Virus record (IMG/VR): IMGVR_UViG_3300030116_005228
Span: 1-36,171 of that record
Source: a virus
Strand: one strand, 5' to 3'
DNA length: 36,171 nucleotides
Of this stretch, positions 6,945 to 30,514 are shown in pieces. The notes beneath the pieces are model-generated. The model was not told where the DNA came from, did not search any database, and saw nothing but the letters and a program-made list of their open reading frames with translations. Numbering within the stretch: position 1 is the first letter of the stretch; each line of letters starts with the position of its first letter. The translations under genes were made by a program, and so were the position numbers.

Positions 6945-8608
6945 TGATGAACATTCTGGAAAAAGAAGACTTAATTAAAGGTCTTCCAGATAATGTTTTA
7001 CAGCAACAGATGAAGGCTCCTACAGGAGAGCTTCCCCAGTTCCTTTTGATATCTGAAATACAACGCAGAACAGATATGCGTAAAAAGCTTCAGGAGCAGC
7101 CTAAAAAAGAAACGGTGTCCGAGCAAATTATGATGGAAGGCATCATGTCTAACAGACCTCCTATGCAACCTCAGATGCAACAGCCACAGATGCAACCCCA
7201 AATGCAGCCACAGATGCCTCCTATGGATAGCCAAGGTATAGCTGGTTTATCTGCGCCTCCAATGGGTATGGCAGAAGGCGGGATAGTCAGGATGTTTCAG
7301 GGCGGTTTGCCCGGTGCGCCTAAAGGATTTCAAGGAAATCTTTTATCAGCAGATAATATGAAAAAACAAAAAGACTTGATTTATCAAAAACTATTAAATT
7401 TAGAAAATCTAAATGATATTGCTGCTAGTGGAGAGTTTGCTCCAGAAATTATTCAGTCGGTAATTAATGAAATGGAAGGCGAGGGTTTTAGAGGAAGACA
7501 GCCTTATATAGCAACAGATGATTCAGGAGAAACGACTGTAATTCCAACATCTAGAGAGCAACAGCAAACATTTGACAGATTACAAAGAAATGTAAATAGA
7601 GGTGACAGTCAGTCAAGCCCGTTTTCATATGAAAATAATATTTTAAGGGAAAACTTGTTTGAATCTTTAGGACAAGATAGAGAGGATGGAAAAGTAGAAA
7701 GCCGAGCATTAAAAGATGTGCTGGGTGGTTTTCTCCCCGACATGTCTGGAAGCAACACGCCTGTAAAAGATTTCTTTGGTGGGATGCGTTCTTTGTTTGG
7801 ATCTGGTGATGAAGGACCAACAAAAGCAGAAGAATTAGCAAGACTAAGAAGAAATTATGAAGCTGGTCTTAGGCCTGATGGAACTGCTTCAGATGTAAAT
7901 GTAACAGGATTTAACGAAGTGCAAAAACAAGGTGTTAATTCTAACGCTCAAGAACGTGCTGAAATAGTTTTTAATAAATTTAAAAACTTGGGAGACGCTG
8001 ACTCTAGAAAAACAAAAGAAGATGATATAAAAGGATCATTGCTGGGAGACTTGATAGGTTTTGGTAGATCAGCCCTTGAAACAGATGAGGATGCCTCGCT
8101 TCTCGATTATTCTGATTTGATTGAGCAAAGCAGAAGACAATCAAAGGGAGATGCCCTGACCCAGCTTGGCCTTGGAATAATGGGTGGCAGTCTGCAAACA
8201 GGCTTAGAAAGAGCAGCCAAGTCTGTGTCGAAAGAAAGAGATCGAGAGATGAAGTTGAGATTGCAAGAACGGATGTCTGGTCAGAAAGCACTAGAAGCTG
8301 ACAGAGCAAGAGGCATTCAGGCATTGGCGGCAGCAGCCAAAGTGCAACAGTATGCAGATCGTTTTTCTACAGAAGAAACGAAGCAAACAGAAACGACAAA
8401 AAGAGCAATATTTCAAACCGCTTTAAGAGAAGCTGGAGATTACTTGAAAGACAATCCCAACCCTCCTTCCTCTTTTAAAACAAATAACAAAAATAGAAAG
8501 GACGCATGGCGAAATCATATTATAGATCGGTATTTCAACCGAATTATGCAAAGCCTTGGAGGGGGTCGTGTTGATTTTAGTGGTATAGAACTTGAAGGAG
8601 TTGGTTAG
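6944..8608 (+). CDS. Internal virion-type protein with Met/Gln/Pro repeats
   Basis: A 554-residue protein starting at an ATG that overlaps the upstream TAA; a second ATG follows at once. After a helical N-terminus it has a repetitive segment of MQPQ-type units (about residues 73-95, nt 7160-7230) leading into MAEGGIVRMFQGGLPG, the same EGG[IL] motif found in the 1146-residue protein. The remainder is charged and helical, with an Ala/Lys-rich stretch (LTQLGLGIMGGSLQTGLERA, about 405-425) before a basic C-terminal domain. No enzyme motif is visible. Its place between the gp14-like gene and the giant protein suggests an ejection or scaffold-like role, comparable in position to T7 gp15. That is an inference from order only. 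Confidence 0.7.
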   Translation: MMNILEKEDLIKGLPDNVLQQQMKAPTGELPQFLLISEIQRRTDMRKKLQEQPKKETVSEQIMMEGIMSNRPPMQPQMQQPQMQPQMQPQMPPMDSQGIAGLSAPPMGMAEGGIVRMFQGGLPGAPKGFQGNLLSADNMKKQKDLIYQKLLNLENLNDIAASGEFAPEIIQSVINEMEGEGFRGRQPYIATDDSGETTVIPTSREQQQTFDRLQRNVNRGDSQSSPFSYENNILRENLFESLGQDREDGKVESRALKDVLGGFLPDMSGSNTPVKDFFGGMRSLFGSGDEGPTKAEELARLRRNYEAGLRPDGTASDVNVTGFNEVQKQGVNSNAQERAEIVFNKFKNLGDADSRKTKEDDIKGSLLGDLIGFGRSALETDEDASLLDYSDLIEQSRRQSKGDALTQLGLGIMGGSLQTGLERAAKSVSKERDREMKLRLQERMSGQKALEADRARGIQALAAAAKVQQYADRFSTEETKQTETTKRAIFQTALREAGDYLKDNPNPPSSFKTNNKNRKDAWRNHIIDRYFNRIMQSLGGGRVDFSGIELEGVG

Positions 8609-11600
8609 TGGAGATAACTCTTCCTAATGGAACTGTTTTATACAATGTTCCAGAAGATATGGGTGCGCTTGATTTAGCCAATATTGCTATTGCGAACAAT
8701 CTTGCAGTTGAAGAAGATTTTGCCGGGCTTGGTCTTTTTCCTGAAGTTCAAGAAGTGTTTGAAGAAGAAGAGGAGGAAGATGAAGAGCTAGGGTTTTTTG
8801 AGGGTATTGGCGATGCCTTAACAAACATTGCCACTGGAACCACTACAGGAATTCAAGGCATAACAAGCGGTCTGTTTAGTGTAGATAACGCTATATCCGA
8901 TTCAATGGATGAAACAGAAAGACTGTTACAGGAATATCTTTCTGCTCAAGCAAAAAACGATCAGCAAGCTATAGCAAAAATAGCAAAAGAAGCTGAAGAT
9001 AAAGGAATAGCAGATCAGCTTTATGCGGCTGGTGAATCCCTTGCTATTGCTCCTATTGATTTAACCGCTCAAGCTGTTGGAACAATGATCCCTCAGATTG
9101 CTGCGGCTGGTATCGGAGGGTTGTTTGGCGGTCCTCTAGGCGCAATTGCAGCGAACAGAGCGGTTGCTGCGGTACAAGGAGCAGGCTTTATAAGGGAGGG
9201 TATTTATGATGCGGTATATAGTGAATACATCAAGAATAACTTTCCAGAAGAAATTGCAAAACAAAAAGCGTTAGAAGCACAAGAACTTACCGGGGACAAC
9301 TGGTATCAGCTTCTTACTGGCGGTGGGCTTGGCTTGCTTGCTGGCGGAACGGGTGTTGAAAGAGGGATTATAAATAGGATTCTAGGAAAGAAAGTAGCTC
9401 ACAAGATGTCTCAGAATGTGGCGATCCGGGCAGGGAAAGGAGCCATCGAGGAAGCGATCCCGGAAGGATTGCAGGGAGCGCATGAAGCCTTGGCTGCTAA
9501 TACAGCCTTGCGGAATGAGGGATTTGATACGCCTCTGTTCCGTGGGGTTCCTTACCAAGGAGCCTTGGAGTTTGGTGTTGGTGCGCCTCTTGGTGGAATT
9601 ACCGGGGCGTTAGGCTCCCCAGAGGAGGCCAGTGGGGATCGGTTCTATGATAGAGAGCTTGCCCTGACAGAGGAGGCAATAAAGAAAGAATTAGGACTTC
9701 GTGAAGCAGAGAACGCTGAACTGGAAGCAGGCAGGCAGAATAGACTTGCAGAACTTCTGGCAGAGGGCGTTAGCGAAGAAGAAGCCTTGAGAGAAGCAGG
9801 AGAGCCTATTCCTCTTGATAGAAGACTCCCGGCTCCCAGAATTAAAGAACCACAAACAGCAGCCCTTCGCTCAGAGCAAGAGCGTGTTGATTTTGCCAAG
9901 AATTTTGCAAAAGATGTAGAGGTTCGCCACGGAGACTCTTTTAGCTCAATCAGGGGTGTAAATCAGCAAGGTCTTAAAAATTACACTGGCGATGTAATGG
10001 ACAGGGCTGGCAATGTCATTGCTTCCTTTGATGATCCGCTTGTTGCTGCCACAGTAGCAATCGAGTTGAATGCCAAAGAGGTAGATAAAACACTAAGATT
10101 CCACACTGATACAGTCATAGACCAAACTCCAGAAAACTATTCTTTTGGGCAAAGAAATGTATTGAGGAGGTTTGCCAGAAGACTTCTTCACCCGGATGAA
10201 AAGAGATTCAGTATTGACCAGATCAACATGGCTGCTGGAACGACTGTAGAGAATGGTTTTGAGAACGAAGGATTAAGCGCAGAAGAAGCAAAAGAAGCCA
10301 TAATCAAAGGCACAATGAAAGGTGATCAGCTTTCTGCCGCTCAAAAAATTAACTTGGCAAGAATCAGGGACGGCAAGCCTGTTCTCCGCTCTTTTTCTGT
10401 AAAAGAAGCGCAAGAAGCTCTTGGCAAGAAGTTCCCTTCACTTCTGAAATATGATGTCAATTATGATGGAGCCACCTATAGCGCAGAAACCAGAGATGGT
10501 GAGCCTGTGGTCGTATCCAGCTTTGGCGATGTCATCAAGACGAGAAGACAAAACCTAGACAGGATAGGTAAAAGACTTGCCGAGGATGATCAGCGAGTAA
10601 ACTTCTCTTCAATAGAAGACGCACAACAATATGCGAATGCTTTGAATGAAGCGTCAATAGATGGCATGGGTCCGTTGCGCTTTTTCTCTGAACTGTTTGG
10701 TAAAAACGAAATCTCAGTTAGTGATATAGAAAGCATTCTTGAATTCAAAAATATTAGTTCTGATATAAACTCCCCAGAAATAAGATACATTGCTTCTCTG
10801 GCAACCGGGAAACGTAAAGCTAAAATCCCGGAGATGTCTGATATAGATAGAAGGCTTGTATACAACACGCTTAGAAATCTTCCCAAGTTCCAGAAACCCA
10901 CCAGAATCCCCTTCTTTGCTCCCAAGCCGTATTCCCCGGCTCAATACGAGTATGTTTCCAAAGAACTTATTGAAAGAGGAGCAGTTCCTGACGCAAGGGC
11001 TGTTAGCGATGGCGTTAGTGCAATCACTGAGTTCCAGTACAAAAAACTAATCAGGGATGTCGAAAAGGATATAGGCGTACAGGCTCAAGCTCAAGAAGCT
11101 GCTGCTGCCAGAAATGAAGCAGCCAAGGCTGAAGAATCAGCAAAAAAAGCTGCGGATTTAGCTGAAAAAAGAGCGGCTGAAATAGAAAAGTCAGAGCGTG
11201 AGGAAAGAAAGCGAGTGCAGGAAGCCTTGAACAAGGTAATGAAGGGCTTCGGTTTAGATAGAGTTAGAACAAATGTTGTGGACTTGATGTCCAAGGCGGC
11301 TAGAGATGCTGATGGAAATCTGATCCTTGGCAAGGATAAGCGTCCTGACAGCGTAGAGGGAGGGTATGAGCCTGCCCTCAACGAAATATTTATTGCTCTG
11401 GAATCTATAAAAGCTAACCCGGAGTACACCGGGGACAATCTGGAGCAACTGGCAATAAGCATATTGAATCATGAAGTTCTTCATGCCATGCGCCAGCTTG
11501 ACCTTATCACCCAGCAAGAGTTTGAGTTGTTAGAAAAATTAGCTTCAAGAACAGTTCGCCCGGAAGGAATGGCTGGTGCTGGTCTGACATTTACAGAGTA

Positions 11601-14600
11601 TGCCAATCAAGCTTATAAAGAAGAATCTGAAACCGTCAAGATGGAAGAAGCTGTAGCAGAACTTGTCCGGGCTGGTTTGGAGGGCAGATTAAAAGGGATA
11701 GGTGGAAAGCCTCGATCCCTGATGAAAAGAATTCTTGAGTTTATTAAAAGAATGTTTGGCTTCAAGGACACTGTTGGTTACACCAGTTTTAGTGATTTGA
11801 TTGACGGAATCAGCGGAGGCCAGATAGGGGCAAGAAGAGAAGGAACGGTTCGATCCCTGAGATTAACAGAAAAACAAAGAGCAAAAGACAAAAAAGAACT
11901 TCCTTCAACTTATAGGGGTGTAATTCGTGAGGCTGCTATTTCTCCTGTACAGGATATTGAAGAAACAGAAGAAGTACAAGAAGCCCAAGATGCAGAAGAA
12001 GCTGTGGATCAGCGTCCACCTGCCAGAGGTCCGATAGGAAAGCAGGCAGAGGCAGACTTCCTTGAATCAAGAAGACTGACCGAGCCTCTTATAGACCAGA
12101 TACAAAGTGTTGAGGAAAAAATATATCGCCTTGAATCTGAATTAAGAGTGGATGGGCCTTTCTTGTCTGAGAAGAAGGCAAACGAATTATCAAGGCAAAT
12201 TTCAGAACAACAAGCCTTATTGGATAATTTAAAAAATGAACTTGCAAGAATTGATTCAGAAATTCCTCTTGATGTGGGCAGAGTTGTACCAGAGGGCGAT
12301 CTTCGTGTTTATCATGGCGGGACTTTAGACTCACCCGGAAGACAGGCGAGCGGTTTAACATTTGTTTCTGAAGATAGAGATCAGGCAGAGTCTTATGCTT
12401 TCAGGGCAGACAGAGATATACCTCAATCAGAAGACAAGCTCTTTTCTTTTTTCATTGACTCCACAAAACTTGCTAATGAACCAGAAGCAAGGGAAGTTAT
12501 AGCCGACTTGGGCATAGAGCCTGTAAATCCAAATTTAAGTTCAAATGAGGCAAATATCTATGAGCTTTTAGACCCCTTGTTTGAGCAATTTGTCGGGGAT
12601 GAAAATGTCTCTTCTTTTAAAAATGAAATGACAAGAAGAGGCTACACCGGGGTTAAGTTTTTAGATCAGGACATGAGGCGAACCGGGACTGGAAGGCAGA
12701 CAGCAGAAAACATTGTTTTGTTTGACACTCCTTACATGGGTCAATCGGAAATGCTTTACTCTAAGAGACTTTCTGATGAAGATTTGGAAATTATAAACTC
12801 TGAAAAATTCGGTGTTACGCCCTCAGTTAAAAGAGGCTATTTGGCGTATAAGTCTGGTGTGATTACCAGACAGGAATACGATGAAATAGTTCTTGAAACC
12901 ATAAAGCCTTATACAGAAGTTCCTTTGCCAGAAACAATAGAGCAAATGGAAAAAGCATTGGCTGCTAATAAAGTCCCAAATCTTTACAAGGAGGTAAAAG
13001 TAAAGGATGGTGAGTTTGTAGGTATAAGATTAGATATCCCGGCTTACCTTAGAAAGTTTCCTGACTCAGCTTGGGTTCCAACAGTTCATTTTAAAGGTGA
13101 AGATGGGCTAGAAAAAACATCTCATAGGGCAACTGTTTATATAAAAAGCAAAGGCGATCAAAAAATAGATTTTACAAAAAGAACCTCTCAGGCAGCGGCA
13201 CAACTTGTTATGGAAGCCGAAGAGGGAATTGCTGAAATCAATCGTAAGCTTGAAGCTGGAGAAATAACAGAAGAAAAAGCAACAAAGCTAAAAAAGAGAC
13301 ACAATAAAAATTCCTTTGCTAGGATTGAAGGAGAGTTCGTAGAAAGATCGGACAGAGAAAACTACGATGCAGCAGTAGCCGCCCTTAACGATCCTGAATG
13401 GACTCAGGTTGGTTACGATCCAAAAAGACATTCTTATTTTTACGATAGAAAAACAGGAGAACCAGTTACCTCTGCGGATGAGGTGATTCAAGTAGGACCG
13501 CTTGTCTTGGCTAAAAACGCCCAGAGAGACCCAGATTATGAAACCAGATATTCAAAAAGGTTTGAGCCGAAACATGGCATTCCGGGGATGTACATTAAAA
13601 AATCCAGAGGCAAGGTGTCAGGAAAGACATTTATGCCAAAAGCACTTAATCCTCAAAATGGACAGGCGCAAGGTGAGCGTTTTGATGAGTTAGCCAGAAG
13701 GCATCCCGACCCCTTGGGCAGTGAAGCATCTTGGTTACGATTTGAAAGAGAACTTCTTGGTGATAATGAAACACCACCAGCCCCTACAGGGCTTATTTCT
13801 CTGGTCAACAACATAGAGGACTGGGAGGAAAAACATTCCCAGTTAACACCAGCGCAAGTTAAAGCAGCGAAGGAAGGCTTTGAGCTTGTTGAGGTGATGA
13901 ATAAAGCCTATGCAGATGGAGATGTAGGTCCAGATACAACAGCGAAGCTCATGCTTTGGGGGATGCTTTCAAGAATGCTTTCAGCGTATCCCCATGAAGC
14001 AGCCTTTCTTGATGTTGCGGCAACAAAAGAGTTGTCTGAGTTTATAGACAAAGCAATACAAAAAGAATGGACTCAAGAAGATGTGAACAATTATCTTTCT
14101 TGGACATCAACGGTGTTGCCAAAGTTTTCCCCATCCAAATCAGCAACGTCAAACCTCAATGATTTTGGAAAGATATTTTTAAAGAAGCTTTCAAAAAGAA
14201 TGTCCGATGGAAGGTCAGGGCTGGAAGTGTTACACGATCTTGTTTCAAACAGATCAATTCCAACATCTGAAGTCAGGCGAAGATATTATGCGCTTGGACA
14301 AGGAATGGGCATAAAAAACAAAGTGCTTTCCTTTGTGTTATTGATGACAGGAAGGAATGATGTAGTTGTGCTTGATAGAATACAAATCAATTCCATGTGG
14401 GATGCTGGTAAGTTTGGAAAGCTTATTTATGATGATGTTGCCACGTTGTTTGACGATGCTCATGGTCTGGCTAGATATGAAGCTATTGAAAGATCGTTAC
14501 AACCTAGAATACAGGAGCTTTATGATCGTGTAGGAAGGCCAAAAGATGCTTCTGTTGGAAGATATCACTGGGAAAGCTGGGTAAGAGACTCTGGGCAAGT

Positions 14601-17600
14601 GGTGTCTCATCCTTCAATCGAAGGATTGACAAATGAAATAAAAATTGATCAGCCTCTGGCGGATTCTTATGCAGATATAGGTGCATCAGAGGGAAGATTC
14701 CATCAATATTCGTTTGGCTCAGTGTATGCGAGAGACAAAAAAGGAACTCCGTATATACTTTATCCTAAAAGCGATGGTACAATTCATAAGTTTTCTCTTG
14801 ATAAATTTAAAGGTTTATTAGATAAGTTTAGAGAACAAGGTGTAAATAAAGTAGTTCCAAAAGGGTTTCTTGTAAATAAATACAGAGAAGCTGGTTATCC
14901 TTGGTATGAAGCGGAGGGAGTAAATCGTGATAAAATCAATGAACTCATCGATGCCTTCTCAGAAGGAGAAGTTGATACAGAAGAAGTTGTTTCAGGGTCT
15001 CTCGAAACTAAACAGCCTGCCGATGTCTCCAGAAGAAGAGACACTAGGTCTAGACCAAAGACACAAAGAACGCACTCCCCGGAACAGATAGAAAAAGCCC
15101 TTGCTAAGAACGCTGAAGAGGCGGAAGCAAGCAAAGGCATAGCAGTACCCCCATATAGCACTAAAGCCTCCCCAGAAGCCCAGTATGTAGCTAGAAACCC
15201 TGATGCTGGTGCTGTTGATACAGGTATGCTTGAGAGTATCAGGTTCAGGCCAGAGCAACCTGCTGATATAAAAGAAATGATGGACAGGGTGGCAGGTGAA
15301 GCTCCCCAGCCAAGAAACCAAATTGATATCTATAACGACACGGTATTGCCCTTGGGAGAGAACTCCAAGTCCAGCCGTTTCAGGTATTATTTTGACAAGT
15401 TCAGACAGGCTTTCATAGATCGTTTTTCAAGGGTTGGTTATCTCCAAGCAAAGAATCGTGACCTGTTAAGTCAAACAGCAGACTCAAGTGCTTACACTGC
15501 TTTACTGAACGCAGATAGAGCCATAGGCGTAACTGCTGGCCTAATCAAGGACGGTACGGTGTTTTACCGGGATGGCGCAGTTCAGATAGATATAACTCAA
15601 AAATCCTTAATAGAAGTCTTATCTCCTCTCCAGTCCCTCAAGTATGGAAACCTTGAAAGAGAATGGAAAACATATGCGATTATCCAGAGAGGAGTGTTCC
15701 TGAACGAACAAGGAAAGCAAACGCCTGTCACTAAGGAAGACATAGCTAAAGCAAAATACCTTGAAGAGGCTTATGTTGATGAGAATGGCGAAAGCATTAT
15801 GCGTAAGGTCTATGATGACTGGCAGACGTTCAACGGCTTTACCATACAGTTTTTGCAAGACTCCGGGGTGGTGGATGCGAAAACAGCACAAGAATTTGCA
15901 AACTCTTTTTACTATCCGTTTTACAGAGCCGCAGAGGTAGGCGGAGGAGAGGTTGAGACTTACGCTCAAAACATGTTTGGTAACATGACCAAGGCTGCCA
16001 CCTTTACCAAGCTTAAAGGCAGTGAAAGTGCTGTCAACCTAGATCCTACTGTGGCCATTACCAGAAACCTCATGGCAGCGGTCCAAATGGGGATGAACAA
16101 CATTGCACAGCAACGTGTCGTAAGAGACATGTTAAAGCTAGGTTTGGCAAGGGAAGTTCCAAAATCAACTGCAAAACAAAATGGAATCGTTGAACTAAAA
16201 GTTCAGGGAGTGTCTAGAAAATTTATTATTGATGATCCCCTTGTGTTTGAAGCGTTGATGCCTATGGATGCAATCGAGGGCGGAGCGTTTTTTACTGCGC
16301 TTAATCTGCCTTCAAACATTCTCAGGGAAACGATTACCAGAACCCCTGACTTTGTTTTAGCCAACCTGTTGAGGGATAGCTTGTCTGCCTATGTGACTAC
16401 AGGGGCAAGCGTCAGAAATGTAATTCCTATGGCTAGTACACTAAAACAGTTTTTCAAGGGAGATGTTTCTGAATTAAACAGGTTCGGTCTGGTTCAGGGT
16501 TACGATCTTAGCCGACAAGAAGCGGATATCACAAAGTATTTTGAAAAAGAAAGAAAGAGAAACGAGAAGAGCTTTGCTTCAAAACTAAATCCTTTTACAG
16601 CCATATGGGACGGGCTAGGCTCAATGACTACCAAGTCCGATGCGGCAACAAGGCTTGCTGTTTATAAAGATGTGCTTGCAAGAACGGCAAACCATGCGGA
16701 GGCGGCTTTTCAGGCGCAGGAAGTAATGAACTTCGGGAGAAGAGGTAGAAACCAGACCTTCCGCTATGTGACAGCCGCAGTGCCTTTCCTTAATGCGAGA
16801 ATACAGGGTCTGGATGTATTGTTCCGGGCATTGTCTGGAAGCCAGAGCGCGATGCAGCAGCAAACTGCAAATCAAATCAAGGCAAGGGCGTTTACCAGAT
16901 TAACGATTCTTACAGGGATAACTTTCTTATACTGGATGATGATGCACGATGAAGATGAGTATAAAGAAGAAAACTCAGTTACAAGGGAGCTTAACTTCCT
17001 TATTAAAACACCCTTTGGTGTTCCATTCAAAATGCCAACAGCATTCGAGGTTGGCTTAATCAGCAAGGTTATCCCGGAAGCACTCTTTAACGCCAATGCA
17101 GAAGCAATTAACAAGTCAATGGGTAGGGATGGAGAAGTGTTTGATTACACCGCCAAACAAACCTTTGATACATTGTTCCATCAAATATTCAATGTCGTTA
17201 AGCTCAGTCCTTTGGATATTCAGCTTGTCGGCCCTTTCATTGAAGTGTTGGCTAACTATGACGGGTTTACTGGCAGGTCTATTGTTCCTTCTTACATAAT
17301 GGAAGGCGCAGGGGGAGGAGCGAGATACCCGGAAGAACAGGTAAGCCCATATAGTTCAGAGGCTGCAAAGATTATCGGAAAGGCAATAGATATGTCCCCG
17401 ATGAAGGTAGATCACCTGATAAAAGGCTATACCGGGACAATGGGCGGTTATGTTTCCTATATTGTTGATGCAATAGTTAGAAGTCATGCAGAGACTCAAA
17501 GAGGATTGCCGCCAGCAGTTCCGATGCTAGAGATGCCTGTGATAAGACGTTTCTTTGCGAAAGAAGCTCCGTCCGGGCTACGTTCTCAGGTGTATGAATT

Positions 17601-17937
17601 GTCTAACGAAATTGCTATGGCTACGCAAGCCATGAAATCAATGGAAGAAGCTGGCAAACAAGAAGAAGCAGAAGCTTTCTTTTATGCAAGAGAAGATTTG
17701 TTTAGGGAAAAGGGCAGAGTTAAACAGGCTCGAAGAGAAGTGGATCGTGTTAGAAAGGAAATCAAAGAGCTTATTGAAAGAGATGATCTGGATCAGGACG
17801 CAAAGCTTCAAGAAAAACAACGTCTGGAACTGCTGCTTAACGATTACTTATTGAATGCGATAAACCTTCCAGAGGTTTACTCCTCGATTGAAAGCACACC
17901 AGCCACCCGGTTTTTGAGACCGGGGGGATACAGATAA
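8608..17937 (+). CDS. Giant polyvalent virion protein with zincin-like, ART-like and LPD38-like regions
   Basis: A 3109-residue protein starting at a GTG that overlaps the upstream TAG. Regions: an N-terminal LPNGTVLYNVPEDMG module (3-33); an acidic run (about 47-66); Ala/Gly-rich hydrophobic helices (about 150-260); a coiled coil (about 828-878); an HExxH motif, HEVLH at 955-959, as in zincin metalloproteases; an ADP-ribosyltransferase-like region (about 1230-1375) with VYHGG, GLTFVSEDRDQAESYA and GYTGVKFLD; an HhH-like segment (about 1900-1930, MTGRNDVVVLDR); an LPD38-like region (about 2250-2680) with TRTPDFVLANLLRDSLSAY; and a charged helical C-terminus. Phage polyvalent proteins combine such domains and are packaged and injected to act on the host early. 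It closes the internal virion cluster, where T7 encodes gp16. The HExxH is directly visible; ART, HhH and LPD38 are family-level inferences. Confidence 0.8.
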   Translation: MEITLPNGTVLYNVPEDMGALDLANIAIANNLAVEEDFAGLGLFPEVQEVFEEEEEEDEELGFFEGIGDALTNIATGTTTGIQGITSGLFSVDNAISDSMDETERLLQEYLSAQAKNDQQAIAKIAKEAEDKGIADQLYAAGESLAIAPIDLTAQAVGTMIPQIAAAGIGGLFGGPLGAIAANRAVAAVQGAGFIREGIYDAVYSEYIKNNFPEEIAKQKALEAQELTGDNWYQLLTGGGLGLLAGGTGVERGIINRILGKKVAHKMSQNVAIRAGKGAIEEAIPEGLQGAHEALAANTALRNEGFDTPLFRGVPYQGALEFGVGAPLGGITGALGSPEEASGDRFYDRELALTEEAIKKELGLREAENAELEAGRQNRLAELLAEGVSEEEALREAGEPIPLDRRLPAPRIKEPQTAALRSEQERVDFAKNFAKDVEVRHGDSFSSIRGVNQQGLKNYTGDVMDRAGNVIASFDDPLVAATVAIELNAKEVDKTLRFHTDTVIDQTPENYSFGQRNVLRRFARRLLHPDEKRFSIDQINMAAGTTVENGFENEGLSAEEAKEAIIKGTMKGDQLSAAQKINLARIRDGKPVLRSFSVKEAQEALGKKFPSLLKYDVNYDGATYSAETRDGEPVVVSSFGDVIKTRRQNLDRIGKRLAEDDQRVNFSSIEDAQQYANALNEASIDGMGPLRFFSELFGKNEISVSDIESILEFKNISSDINSPEIRYIASLATGKRKAKIPEMSDIDRRLVYNTLRNLPKFQKPTRIPFFAPKPYSPAQYEYVSKELIERGAVPDARAVSDGVSAITEFQYKKLIRDVEKDIGVQAQAQEAAAARNEAAKAEESAKKAADLAEKRAAEIEKSEREERKRVQEALNKVMKGFGLDRVRTNVVDLMSKAARDADGNLILGKDKRPDSVEGGYEPALNEIFIALESIKANPEYTGDNLEQLAISILNHEVLHAMRQLDLITQQEFELLEKLASRTVRPEGMAGAGLTFTEYANQAYKEESETVKMEEAVAELVRAGLEGRLKGIGGKPRSLMKRILEFIKRMFGFKDTVGYTSFSDLIDGISGGQIGARREGTVRSLRLTEKQRAKDKKELPSTYRGVIREAAISPVQDIEETEEVQEAQDAEEAVDQRPPARGPIGKQAEADFLESRRLTEPLIDQIQSVEEKIYRLESELRVDGPFLSEKKANELSRQISEQQALLDNLKNELARIDSEIPLDVGRVVPEGDLRVYHGGTLDSPGRQASGLTFVSEDRDQAESYAFRADRDIPQSEDKLFSFFIDSTKLANEPEAREVIADLGIEPVNPNLSSNEANIYELLDPLFEQFVGDENVSSFKNEMTRRGYTGVKFLDQDMRRTGTGRQTAENIVLFDTPYMGQSEMLYSKRLSDEDLEIINSEKFGVTPSVKRGYLAYKSGVITRQEYDEIVLETIKPYTEVPLPETIEQMEKALAANKVPNLYKEVKVKDGEFVGIRLDIPAYLRKFPDSAWVPTVHFKGEDGLEKTSHRATVYIKSKGDQKIDFTKRTSQAAAQLVMEAEEGIAEINRKLEAGEITEEKATKLKKRHNKNSFARIEGEFVERSDRENYDAAVAALNDPEWTQVGYDPKRHSYFYDRKTGEPVTSADEVIQVGPLVLAKNAQRDPDYETRYSKRFEPKHGIPGMYIKKSRGKVSGKTFMPKALNPQNGQAQGERFDELARRHPDPLGSEASWLRFERELLGDNETPPAPTGLISLVNNIEDWEEKHSQLTPAQVKAAKEGFELVEVMNKAYADGDVGPDTTAKLMLWGMLSRMLSAYPHEAAFLDVAATKELSEFIDKAIQKEWTQEDVNNYLSWTSTVLPKFSPSKSATSNLNDFGKIFLKKLSKRMSDGRSGLEVLHDLVSNRSIPTSEVRRRYYALGQGMGIKNKVLSFVLLMTGRNDVVVLDRIQINSMWDAGKFGKLIYDDVATLFDDAHGLARYEAIERSLQPRIQELYDRVGRPKDASVGRYHWESWVRDSGQVVSHPSIEGLTNEIKIDQPLADSYADIGASEGRFHQYSFGSVYARDKKGTPYILYPKSDGTIHKFSLDKFKGLLDKFREQGVNKVVPKGFLVNKYREAGYPWYEAEGVNRDKINELIDAFSEGEVDTEEVVSGSLETKQPADVSRRRDTRSRPKTQRTHSPEQIEKALAKNAEEAEASKGIAVPPYSTKASPEAQYVARNPDAGAVDTGMLESIRFRPEQPADIKEMMDRVAGEAPQPRNQIDIYNDTVLPLGENSKSSRFRYYFDKFRQAFIDRFSRVGYLQAKNRDLLSQTADSSAYTALLNADRAIGVTAGLIKDGTVFYRDGAVQIDITQKSLIEVLSPLQSLKYGNLEREWKTYAIIQRGVFLNEQGKQTPVTKEDIAKAKYLEEAYVDENGESIMRKVYDDWQTFNGFTIQFLQDSGVVDAKTAQEFANSFYYPFYRAAEVGGGEVETYAQNMFGNMTKAATFTKLKGSESAVNLDPTVAITRNLMAAVQMGMNNIAQQRVVRDMLKLGLAREVPKSTAKQNGIVELKVQGVSRKFIIDDPLVFEALMPMDAIEGGAFFTALNLPSNILRETITRTPDFVLANLLRDSLSAYVTTGASVRNVIPMASTLKQFFKGDVSELNRFGLVQGYDLSRQEADITKYFEKERKRNEKSFASKLNPFTAIWDGLGSMTTKSDAATRLAVYKDVLARTANHAEAAFQAQEVMNFGRRGRNQTFRYVTAAVPFLNARIQGLDVLFRALSGSQSAMQQQTANQIKARAFTRLTILTGITFLYWMMMHDEDEYKEENSVTRELNFLIKTPFGVPFKMPTAFEVGLISKVIPEALFNANAEAINKSMGRDGEVFDYTAKQTFDTLFHQIFNVVKLSPLDIQLVGPFIEVLANYDGFTGRSIVPSYIMEGAGGGARYPEEQVSPYSSEAAKIIGKAIDMSPMKVDHLIKGYTGTMGGYVSYIVDAIVRSHAETQRGLPPAVPMLEMPVIRRFFAKEAPSGLRSQVYELSNEIAMATQAMKSMEEAGKQEEAEAFFYAREDLFREKGRVKQARREVDRVRKEIKELIERDDLDQDAKLQEKQRLELLLNDYLLNAINLPEVYSSIESTPATRFLRPGGYR

Positions 17938-24765: not shown

Positions 24766-25124
24766 TGATTCGATCCAGAAAGCTGCTTAACGCAGCCAGA
24801 GATAAAACATGCGTAAACTGCGGTGTTGCGGATGACACCGTGGTTGCAGCGCATTACCAAGGGTTTCGGTCACAAAGTTTTGGTAAAGGCAAAAGCATAA
24901 AAGTGCATGACATTTGTTGTGCCGATTTATGTTACAGGTGTCACAATGCCTTCGATAGAAACGATCCAAGCCTTTCTCATCTCGAAAATAGTTGGTCAAA
25001 AAAGATCGACATCAGCGAACAGTTTTTATTCTGTGTAATTCAAACAATTATCAGACGCATAGGCGATGGCACAATAAAAATCGAGGGGTATGATCCAGAT
25101 GGAATTAAGAATTCAAAAAGCTGA
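24765..25124 (+). CDS. DUF1364-type putative HNH-like nuclease
   Basis: The ATG at 24765 overlaps the upstream TGA. The 119-residue product begins IRSRKLLNAARDKTCVNCG, then VVAAHYQG, and has ADLCYRCHNAFD further on. That order of RSRKL, C-x2-C, an AHxxG loop and a C-x2-CH motif is what I know from the DUF1364 phage family, thought to be zinc-binding HNH-like endonucleases. It sits between the SSB-like and NinB-like genes, so a role in processing recombination intermediates is plausible. The catalytic assignment is inferred; the zinc ligands are visible. Confidence 0.7.
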   Translation: MIRSRKLLNAARDKTCVNCGVADDTVVAAHYQGFRSQSFGKGKSIKVHDICCADLCYRCHNAFDRNDPSLSHLENSWSKKIDISEQFLFCVIQTIIRRIGDGTIKIEGYDPDGIKNSKS

Positions 25125-25521
25125 ATCAGATAAAATTGTTCAGCTATTCAGAACGGTTGTGGATATTGACCCGGATTGTTCTCAGCGACTGGTGGACGTT
25201 GGCAAGAAAGCCAAGCTTGGTGTCCGAGTATTAATTGATCCGATTGTCGCAGAGCGTACTCGGAGGCAGGAAGGATATTATCGGAAGTGGGCTAGAGAGT
25301 TTGGCAGGTTCTGTGGAATGACCCCGGACGAGATTCATGAAGAATTACTTTGCGTGACTTATGGGAGTGTTGAAGTGGAAACAAAATTTGGTGTCAGAAG
25401 GAGGCCACAGAAAAGAAGTGGCGAAACAAATCGAATCAGTTATAGCGAATTGATCGACACACTGATAAGGGTTTCATCAGAGATGGGATTTAATGTCCCC
25501 CCGGCAGAACGATGTGGATAA
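25090..25521 (+). CDS. NinB-like recombination-associated protein (tentative)
   Basis: A 143-residue protein (an alternative ATG lies at 25099 with better spacing from GAGGGG). It shows RRQEGYYRKWAREFGRFCGM, TPDEIHEELLC, a basic Arg-rich segment (VRRRPQKRSGE) and SYSELIDTLIRVSSEMGFNVP. This resembles the general layout of lambda NinB and related phage recombination mediator proteins, which bind single-stranded DNA, but similarity is only at the pattern level. It overlaps the DUF1364 gene by 35 nt and the methyltransferase gene by 29 nt. Confidence 0.5.
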   Translation: MIQMELRIQKAESDKIVQLFRTVVDIDPDCSQRLVDVGKKAKLGVRVLIDPIVAERTRRQEGYYRKWAREFGRFCGMTPDEIHEELLCVTYGSVEVETKFGVRRRPQKRSGETNRISYSELIDTLIRVSSEMGFNVPPAERCG

Positions 25522-26041
25522 TCCCGAAGACGCACCAACTGTACTCTCGCTTTGCAGCGGATATGGTGGCATCGAAAGAGGACTTGAACTTACCGGGACT
25601 AAACATCGAGTCCTCGCTCATGTGGAGATCGAAGCCTTCGCAATTGAAAACTTGGTGTCAAAGATGGAAAAGGGTCTCTTGGCTCCCTCACCTATATACA
25701 CGGATCTTAAAACCTTGCCAGCGGAAATCTTTAGAGACCGAGTTGACATCCTGTTGGGGGGCTACCCGTGTCAGCCTTTTTCGCAAGCCGGGAAACGTGC
25801 CGGAGGGGCGGACCCCAGACACCTCTGGCCGTTCATCCGGGATCACATCAGAACAATTAGACCTGTTCGATGTTTCTTTGAAAATGTCGAAGGACACATC
25901 AGCCTTGGACTCAGAGAGGTCATTGGAGATCTGGAAGAACTCGGTTACAAAAGCTCGTGGGGCATATTTAGCGCGGAAGAGGTCTATGCACCTCATCAGA
26001 GAAAACGGGTTTTTATCATGGCCCACTCCAACATCCACTGA
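25493..26041 (+). CDS. C5 cytosine DNA methyltransferase, N-terminal catalytic part (split)
   Basis: A 182-residue frame carrying the N-terminal motifs of a C5 cytosine methyltransferase: motif I LSLCSGYGGIE (about 18-27, AdoMet binding), motif IV GGYPCQPFSQAG with catalytic C93, motif VI FFENVEG (129-134) and motif VIII APHQRKRVFI (about 166-175). The frame then meets a TGA at 26039-26041. The target recognition region and motifs IX-X are missing here and appear in another frame from 25986 onwards. It cannot be a complete enzyme alone. Either it pairs with the second polypeptide, as split enzymes such as M.AquI do, or the frame shifts near 26010. Phage methyltransferases of this kind usually protect phage DNA from host restriction. 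Confidence 0.85.
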   Translation: MSPRQNDVDNPEDAPTVLSLCSGYGGIERGLELTGTKHRVLAHVEIEAFAIENLVSKMEKGLLAPSPIYTDLKTLPAEIFRDRVDILLGGYPCQPFSQAGKRAGGADPRHLWPFIRDHIRTIRPVRCFFENVEGHISLGLREVIGDLEELGYKSSWGIFSAEEVYAPHQRKRVFIMAHSNIH

Positions 26042-27170
26042 GCGAAGCGGAATCAATCCGAAAACAGGCACGGGCGGAGGCTTGAGCAAAGCGGTTAAGT
26101 CATGGCCCACTCCAAGCGTAATGGGTAACTACAATCGCAAGGGTGCAAGTAAGCACAGTGGAGATGGCTTGGCTACAGCGGTGAAGTCATGGCCCACTCC
26201 CAAAGTTGTTGATACGGAGGGTGGGATAGCCAAAAATGTTGAATTAAAAGATGGGTCGTTTAGCCGAGTAAATGCTGATGGTGTCAGGTTTGGTGTAAAA
26301 CTCAAAGATGCTGTGGATCAACAAAAGCAGTGGCCTACAGTAAGGGTGAGTTCTGCAAACGGGTCTAGCGAAAAAGAAATTGCTGAAGGCAATCCAAAAT
26401 ATCGACTTGAGACAACCGTAGATATAATTGAGCGTGAAAATTGGGCAACGCCAAATACGATGGATCATCTTCCGCAGCGTAGTGAAGAAGCCCTGATAAA
26501 ACAGGCAACAACTTCCAGAAAAGGAAGGAAAAGACCAGCCAACCTTCGTGAACAGGTAGACCCGGAAGCAGTTGAAATTTACGAGAAACAGAATCTATAT
26601 CCCACTCCATCTGCGCGAGACCACAAGGGCGGAAGCGGCACGATTGTTGAAAAAGATGGAAAGTTTTACCGAGTATCAAATACGACTTCCACAAAATTTG
26701 GAGCAAGACTGGATGCTGTTGTTGATGTTCTTGAAAAGAAAAAATATCCTACTCCCACTACAGATTCAGCGACAAACAGAAAAGACAAATACAAGCAGGG
26801 CGGAACCTCGCTATCCACCGCTGTAAATCTTAAAACGCCAACCACTTCAGACTACAAGAACATGGACACTGCCAATCAGGCAATGCTTTCTTCGCAGGTA
26901 AAAGACAAAAAAGGTTACGCACTCTCGCCTGACTGGGTAGAAAAAATGATGGGCGTTCCGCCCGGATGGACCGCGCTCGATGGAACTAGCAATGAATGGG
27001 ATGGAATTGAATCATGGGCAGATGGCTCGTGGGATTCTGGACCACGGGTTGTTCAGCACTGTGAAGACAGGATTGACAGAATCCGTCTTCTTGGGAACGG
27101 GGTGGTCCCGGCTACGGCTGCCAAGGCATGGATTATTCTGGAGCAACAGTTAGATGAAGATTCAAATTGA
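25986..27170 (+). CDS. C5 cytosine DNA methyltransferase, C-terminal part with WPTP repeats (split)
   Basis: In the +1 frame relative to the catalytic part, this frame encodes about eight W/Y-P-T-P-type segments (26019, 26103, 26190, 26331, 26442, 26598, 26745 and a weaker one near 26832). It ends with SPDWVEKMMGVPPGWT and RIRLLGNGVVPATAAKAW, the motif IX-X ending of C5 methyltransferases. Phage enzymes of this class often carry such WPTP stretches between motif VIII and the C-terminus. The frame is open from 25512, but before about 26000 it is only the shadow of the catalytic domain. An ATG at 25986 with GGAAGAGG just upstream could start a separate 394-residue subunit; a frameshift would instead fuse the parts. 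Confidence 0.75.
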   Translation: MHLIRENGFLSWPTPTSTERSGINPKTGTGGGLSKAVKSWPTPSVMGNYNRKGASKHSGDGLATAVKSWPTPKVVDTEGGIAKNVELKDGSFSRVNADGVRFGVKLKDAVDQQKQWPTVRVSSANGSSEKEIAEGNPKYRLETTVDIIERENWATPNTMDHLPQRSEEALIKQATTSRKGRKRPANLREQVDPEAVEIYEKQNLYPTPSARDHKGGSGTIVEKDGKFYRVSNTTSTKFGARLDAVVDVLEKKKYPTPTTDSATNRKDKYKQGGTSLSTAVNLKTPTTSDYKNMDTANQAMLSSQVKDKKGYALSPDWVEKMMGVPPGWTALDGTSNEWDGIESWADGSWDSGPRVVQHCEDRIDRIRLLGNGVVPATAAKAWIILEQQLDEDSN

Positions 27171-30496: not shown

Positions 30497-30514
30497 GGTA
30501 GCCGTCAGGCTACC
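30497..30514 (-). promoter_or_regulatory. Intercistronic stem-loop between ArdC and the next gene
   Basis: GGTAGCC (30497-30503), a 4-nt loop and GGCTACC (30508-30514) form a perfect 7-bp hairpin. It covers the end of the ArdC-like gene, whose TGA lies in the loop, and ends two bases before AAGGAG of the next gene. It may stabilise the ArdC transcript 3' end or tune translation downstream. No T tract follows. Confidence 0.65.

Follow-up and report, generated by a model that had tools for sequence, protein, structure and literature searches.

The multispecific C5 methyltransferases of SPbeta-type Bacillus phages carry tandem small recognition units between motifs VIII and IX, on a single chain and in one frame. 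The small gene of M.EcoHK31I is nested out of frame in the large gene; a long overlap of the M.AquI genes is not known. In M.EcoHK31I the large subunit has motifs I–VIII, motif X and the predicted recognition domain, and motif IX is in the small subunit; in M.AquI the first subunit has motifs I–VIII and part of the variable region, and the second has the recognition region and motifs IX and X (PMC3404938). An out-of-frame HNH element lies inside a phage methylase in ShiLan (PMC11855218). In a literature search of limited coverage we found no paper that presents the overlap described below as a conserved arrangement, and the passages found of the GeneTack survey of frame transitions do not discuss it.

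The window, that is the whole stretch of DNA analysed here, is the IMG/VR record IMGVR_UViG_3300030116_005228 (36,171 bases of virus DNA); the features of the locus are given in Table 1. Frame A encodes 182 residues and its stop codon (TGA, 26039–26041) comes directly after motif VIII. It matches PF00145 over positions 3–163 of 324 (E = 4.5e-30, Pfam search) and phrog_363 (E = 1.8e-47, PHROG search) and has the catalytic Cys93 in a PCQ motif, which confirms the first-pass annotation in placing motifs I–VIII and C93 in one frame ending at 26041. Frame B is +1 relative to A, is open from ATG 25512 to 27170 (552 residues) and spans nearly all of frame A. The WPTP sequence (26019) and motif X (core RLLGNGVVP at 27084) were both located in it, as had been reported; motif X completes the core required of a C5 methyltransferase, of which frame A supplies motifs I–VIII and the PC motif. 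Frame B matches phrog_1008 (E = 1.1e-25) from residue 77 onward, well within the overlap; the library annotation of this family is ‘DNA methyltransferase’, with no mention of a second frame or subunit. Pfam and NCBIfam searches with frame B gave no match, nor did a PDB sequence search using a frame B profile.

Table 1. Features of the methyltransferase locus in window coordinates.
Feature	Position	Strand	Basis
Upstream ORF, stop (25519–25521) overlapping the starts of A and B	25090..25521	+	ORF list
Frame A, putative catalytic subunit (alpha), C5-methyltransferase motifs I–VIII	25493..26041	+	PF00145, phrog_363
Frame B, putative second subunit (beta): N-terminal overlap with A, cassette array, motifs IX and X	25512..27170	+	phrog_1008; +1 frame kept in relatives
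ATGTG: conserved ATG of frame B, sharing bases with a GTG that is in frame for A	25512..25516	+	ATGTGG in relatives
Dual-coded region, frames A and B	25512..26041	+	+1 stop depletion in 61 relatives; codon-position rates
ATG suggested for reinitiation, not kept in relatives	25986..25988	+	Alignment of relatives
T-run, suspected indel site, equal length in relatives	26010..26014	+	Alignment of relatives
Frame B array of eight W-x-T-P-type cassettes, probably for target recognition	26019..26921	+	Segments recurring in other loci
Motif IX-like LSPDWVEKMMGVPPGW in frame B	26922..26969	+	Near-invariant among relatives
Motif X (RIDRIRLLGNGVVPATAAKAW) in frame B; in frame A in most relatives	27069..27131	+	Motif positions

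We consider it likely, from the sequence comparisons set out below, that the two overlapping frames of the locus together encode an intact cytosine-5 DNA methyltransferase of two subunits. The catalytic subunit with motifs I–VIII would come from frame A; frame B, initiating at or near ATG 25512, would give a second protein with the cassettes and motif IX, to which motif X is added in this phage. Initiation would be separate for each frame, at ATG/AUGUG starts, and may be coupled to translation of the upstream gene; the alpha and beta proteins would assemble into a single enzyme, in which the cassettes would serve target recognition. The enzyme most likely marks the phage DNA against restriction; a predicted anti-restriction protein (phrog_7245, E = 3.8e-52) is encoded in the same phage at 30505–31419 on the minus strand. 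Elsewhere in the window, an ORF for a phage PDDEXK nuclease (PF24579, 27167–27670, E = 5.5e-34) starts inside the last codons of frame B, and a single ORF of 3109 codons occupies 8608–17937, with no PHROG match for its first 1131 residues.

The same layout is found in related phages. Phage C75C1 has a 480-codon methyltransferase frame and, on the same DNA, an unannotated +1 frame of 459 codons that is 28% identical to frame B of the window over residues 1–495. The +1 ORF is annotated as ‘g49 internal gene’ in Paenibacillus phage Diva and is ORF30, nested in ORF31, in coliphage K1G, and in a cultured phage, mycobacteriophage Nyxis, gp78/gp77 resemble the arrangement in the window. Nyxis gp77 also matches phrog_1008, as do the nested ORFs of K1G, epsilon15, C72C1 and ReT1v-2. 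Scanning viral sequences with frame B gave 80 further loci, and frame B was in +1 for 92 of the 93 loci then collected. A viral scan with the catalytic domain, in which frame B was not used for selection, also gave 80 loci, with motif IX in +1 for 76; motifs IX and X were both absent in three other loci, and the stored stretches of L108, L110 and L172 end at the match. Among 80 loci from bacterial and archaeal genomes, again found with frame B, motif X is in A and motif IX in +1 for 64, and both motifs are in +1 for six. The methyltransferase of Streptococcus phage IPP64 is an exception, being a canonical single chain. Three actinophages (L263, Rhodococcus ReT1v-2; L264 and L265, Gordonia Trax and SchottB) have an open +1 ORF with recognition-like modules and motif IX in frame A, which is a different distribution of the motifs across the two frames. 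L091 was dropped as a candidate for an un-nested frame B, since its B lies across a second catalytic domain; this locus (L091:133-1955) has tandem methyltransferase domains, the second without its start and with the long B ORF running over it.

In the window alone, 3.25 stops would be expected in frame B over the overlap and none is present (chance 0.014, from shuffles of synonymous codons of A). That frame B is open by chance is untenable because it is conserved across relatives. For 61 non-redundant phage loci from the catalytic-domain scan, with expected counts from synonymous shuffles of frame A, the +1 frame has five stops over motifs I–VIII versus 171.6 expected, while the third frame has 453 versus 477 expected; the +1 frame is fully open over these motifs in 56 of the 61 loci, against 4.1 expected. 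The differences between relatives follow suit. As a descriptive pattern rather than a formal test, the locus pairs being non-independent, the rates at A codon positions 1/2/3 are.181/.105/.417 before B,.219/.125/.274 in the first 330 nt of B,.319/.130/.154 in the remainder of B and.141/.068/.501 past B. The free codon position thus shifts from the third position of A to the third position of B (the first of A) and back. A refined analysis separated class 1, in which B starts around motifs II–III, from class 2, which includes the window and in which B often starts with ATGTGG beside the A start. From the modules to motif IX the rates are.336/.132/.129 in class 1 and.311/.125/.140 in class 2; at motif X they are.158/.057/.491 and.100/.078/.439. 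The window compared with its own relatives gives.50/.145/.099 over the modules and motif IX. Read in this way, constraint at the protein level is switched from frame A (motifs I–VIII) to frame B (the W-x-T-P modules and motif IX) and, in most relatives, back to A at motif X. Across motifs I–VIII the constraint on frame B is partial in class 2.

Starts for frame B can be pointed to in both classes. Of 93 class 1 B starts, 63 have a Shine–Dalgarno match of 5 nt or more upstream (gatgtaAAGGAGttagcaaATG, for example), versus 200 of 2092 control codons; in the window, a match was sought before ATG 25512 and none was found. ATGTGG is present at the B start of 55 of 124 class 2 relatives, and in 30 of these 55 the GTG is the sole possible start of A; in the window, frame A has an additional ATG (25493) upstream of the GTG within ATGTG. 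Two overlapping frames can start from AUGUG sites in E. coli (PMC9841429). Translational coupling of both frames to the upstream ORF (25090–25521) is possible. The first-pass annotation had offered two subunits resembling M.AquI, with reinitiation at ATG 25986, as one option. The two-subunit part of this proposal is supported; the reinitiation is not. GGAAGAGG does exist upstream of ATG 25986, but a methionine is aligned there in only nine of 81 rows, for which reason this start was rejected, whereas the starts of relatives do line up with the MW start at 25512. The beginning of the open frame B lies about 470 bases upstream of 25986, not near it.

In the loci with motif X in A, the A-frame residues across the modules are unconstrained filler rich in Ser, Arg and Glu. 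Over this linker, frame A of 58 representatives has no stops versus 356 expected (third frame, 714 versus 670), where the class is defined by an open frame from A to X, although few loci fail this without having X in B. In the window, whose motif X is in B, the corresponding part of frame A is full of stops. Motif X is in frame B in the window and in L016, L024, L121, L132, L163, L193, L208, L216, L223 and L238. These loci are spread over both main branches of a 115-row tree with rough support values, interspersed with others that have X in A, which suggests that motif X has switched frame several times. L046 was not counted with them, as its motif IX is in the third frame and it looks frameshifted. 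L221, from an Actinomycetota MAG, has motifs I–VIII, the W-x-T-P modules, LNPDWVEWLMGWPVGW and motif X in one frame of 730 codons, and both phrog_363 and phrog_1008 match within this one chain. In frame A of a locus from a Spirochaetaceae MAG (L241:963-3005), an intein-like insert (CFAAGTLVLTENGYKPIDEI...VHNC) is found within the catalytic Pro-Cys motif.

The stretch between motifs VIII and IX in frame B is built of cassettes of 28–52 residues, eight in the window and one to ten per locus among the loci compared. Seven listed segments of the window recur in 3–93 other loci, with best matches that are 67–93% identical, and members of the commonest family (NTMDHLPQRS type), which is present in 98 loci, are followed on the right by 40 different neighbours. 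Recognition units would be expected to be shuffled in this way between motifs VIII and IX, and the cassettes are therefore probably target-recognition units. The motif IX stretch of frame B was assigned as such by pattern and position. A read-through of the window, in which GTTT was coded as V, was built for folding only; the model has a confident core and a C-terminal motif X helix and aligns to M.HhaI 10–326 (Z of about 20), with most of the module region below pLDDT 50, i.e. a low-confidence fold between motifs VIII and IX. Frame B of L049 by itself gave a pLDDT of 59 and a pTM of 0.24 with AlphaFold2. We tentatively suggest, while thinking it somewhat less probable than its contrary, that frame B is a series of small, exchangeable recognition cassettes, one target to each, carried in a second frame of the catalytic gene, and that in most relatives frame A is only an unconstrained tether to motif X within the same DNA. 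If so, multispecific methyltransferases would arise in phages through the shuffling of cassettes that have to be free of stops in both frames, and motif X would be able to change subunit.

The T-run is located where the frames switch, as the first-pass annotation had noted in suspecting an indel there; this speaks for gene decay or for an error of sequencing or assembly. The relatives, however, align base for base through the run with the same length and the same +1 relation (CGAGTCTTTATCATGGCC versus CGGGTTTTTATCATGGCC, with the register unchanged). Frame A of the window also has 27 further stops past 26041, which is not one lesion, and frame B is conserved. The comparison with homologues thus argues against the indel, which we rejected; error or decay is extremely improbable. 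A programmed +1 frameshift near the end of motif VIII, fusing A and B into one chain, has two observations in its favour: L221 is a natural single chain with the joined order, and in several of the loci with X in B the stop of frame A comes no more than a few codons after motif VIII. Yet upstream of the junction frame B is both open and under constraint, and it is open there in the loci with X in B too, the intein-bearing L241 excepted; this counts against a frameshift, because a frameshift would not need it. The junctions read have no common slippery sequence. The open A linker of the loci with X in A is likewise unneeded for a shift into B and back, and since a double frameshift would require no open A frame, two proteins are favoured over one FRAMESHIFTED chain. 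Programmed frameshifting, also raised previously, is unnecessary here and we hold it to be unlikely.

Frame B could also be a genuine second protein that is overprinted on the methyltransferase and unrelated to it, and its want of any Pfam or NCBIfam match and of a confident fold alone is consistent with this. Against it, motif IX, the neighbour of motif X, is in frame B, which in several lineages has acquired motif X as well, and the content of frame B fills the gap from VIII to X in the single frame of L221; the lineages with X in B and L221 together are why we regard frame B as part of the enzyme. Without frame B, moreover, A would offer only an unconstrained low-complexity linker where recognition is expected. 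An unrelated protein is accordingly quite improbable, and a second subunit remains our preferred reading.

With frame B as a second subunit, many phage and prophage genes that are annotated as one or as a split methyltransferase appear to carry a second, often unannotated, +1 protein. The two would form a gene pair with a long overlap on the same strand, widespread among bacterial viruses, and this would account for the Ser/Arg-rich filler at the position of the recognition domain in many phage methyltransferases. The loci would also provide a natural series in which motif X switches subunit, and perhaps a collection of recognition cassettes.

The locus is best read, by analogy, as an overlapping-frame variant of the M.AquI/M.EcoHK31I kind, with the window splitting its motifs roughly as M.AquI does and most relatives roughly as M.EcoHK31I does. 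M.EcoHK31I resembles most relatives in having the catalytic motifs on the large polypeptide and motif IX on the second, and motif X is with motifs I–VIII in most relatives; the window differs in that its motif X and probable recognition region are in the second protein, where M.EcoHK31I has motif X and the predicted recognition domain in the large subunit. In the window, as in M.EcoHK31I, the two genes overlap in different frames. M.AquI resembles the window in having motifs I–VIII in the first subunit and the recognition region and motifs IX and X in the second, a division that the motif positions by frame reproduce in the window. Frame A of the window, however, ends right past motif VIII, whereas the first subunit of M.AquI keeps part of the variable region, and the two genes of the window share about 530 bases in different frames, a coding overlap that is conserved. 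ShiLan also hides a second frame within a phage methylase gene, but there it is an inserted homing endonuclease and not part of the enzyme. The SPbeta-type enzymes share several tandem recognition units with the window, for which the cassettes are the candidates, but have them on one chain and in one frame.
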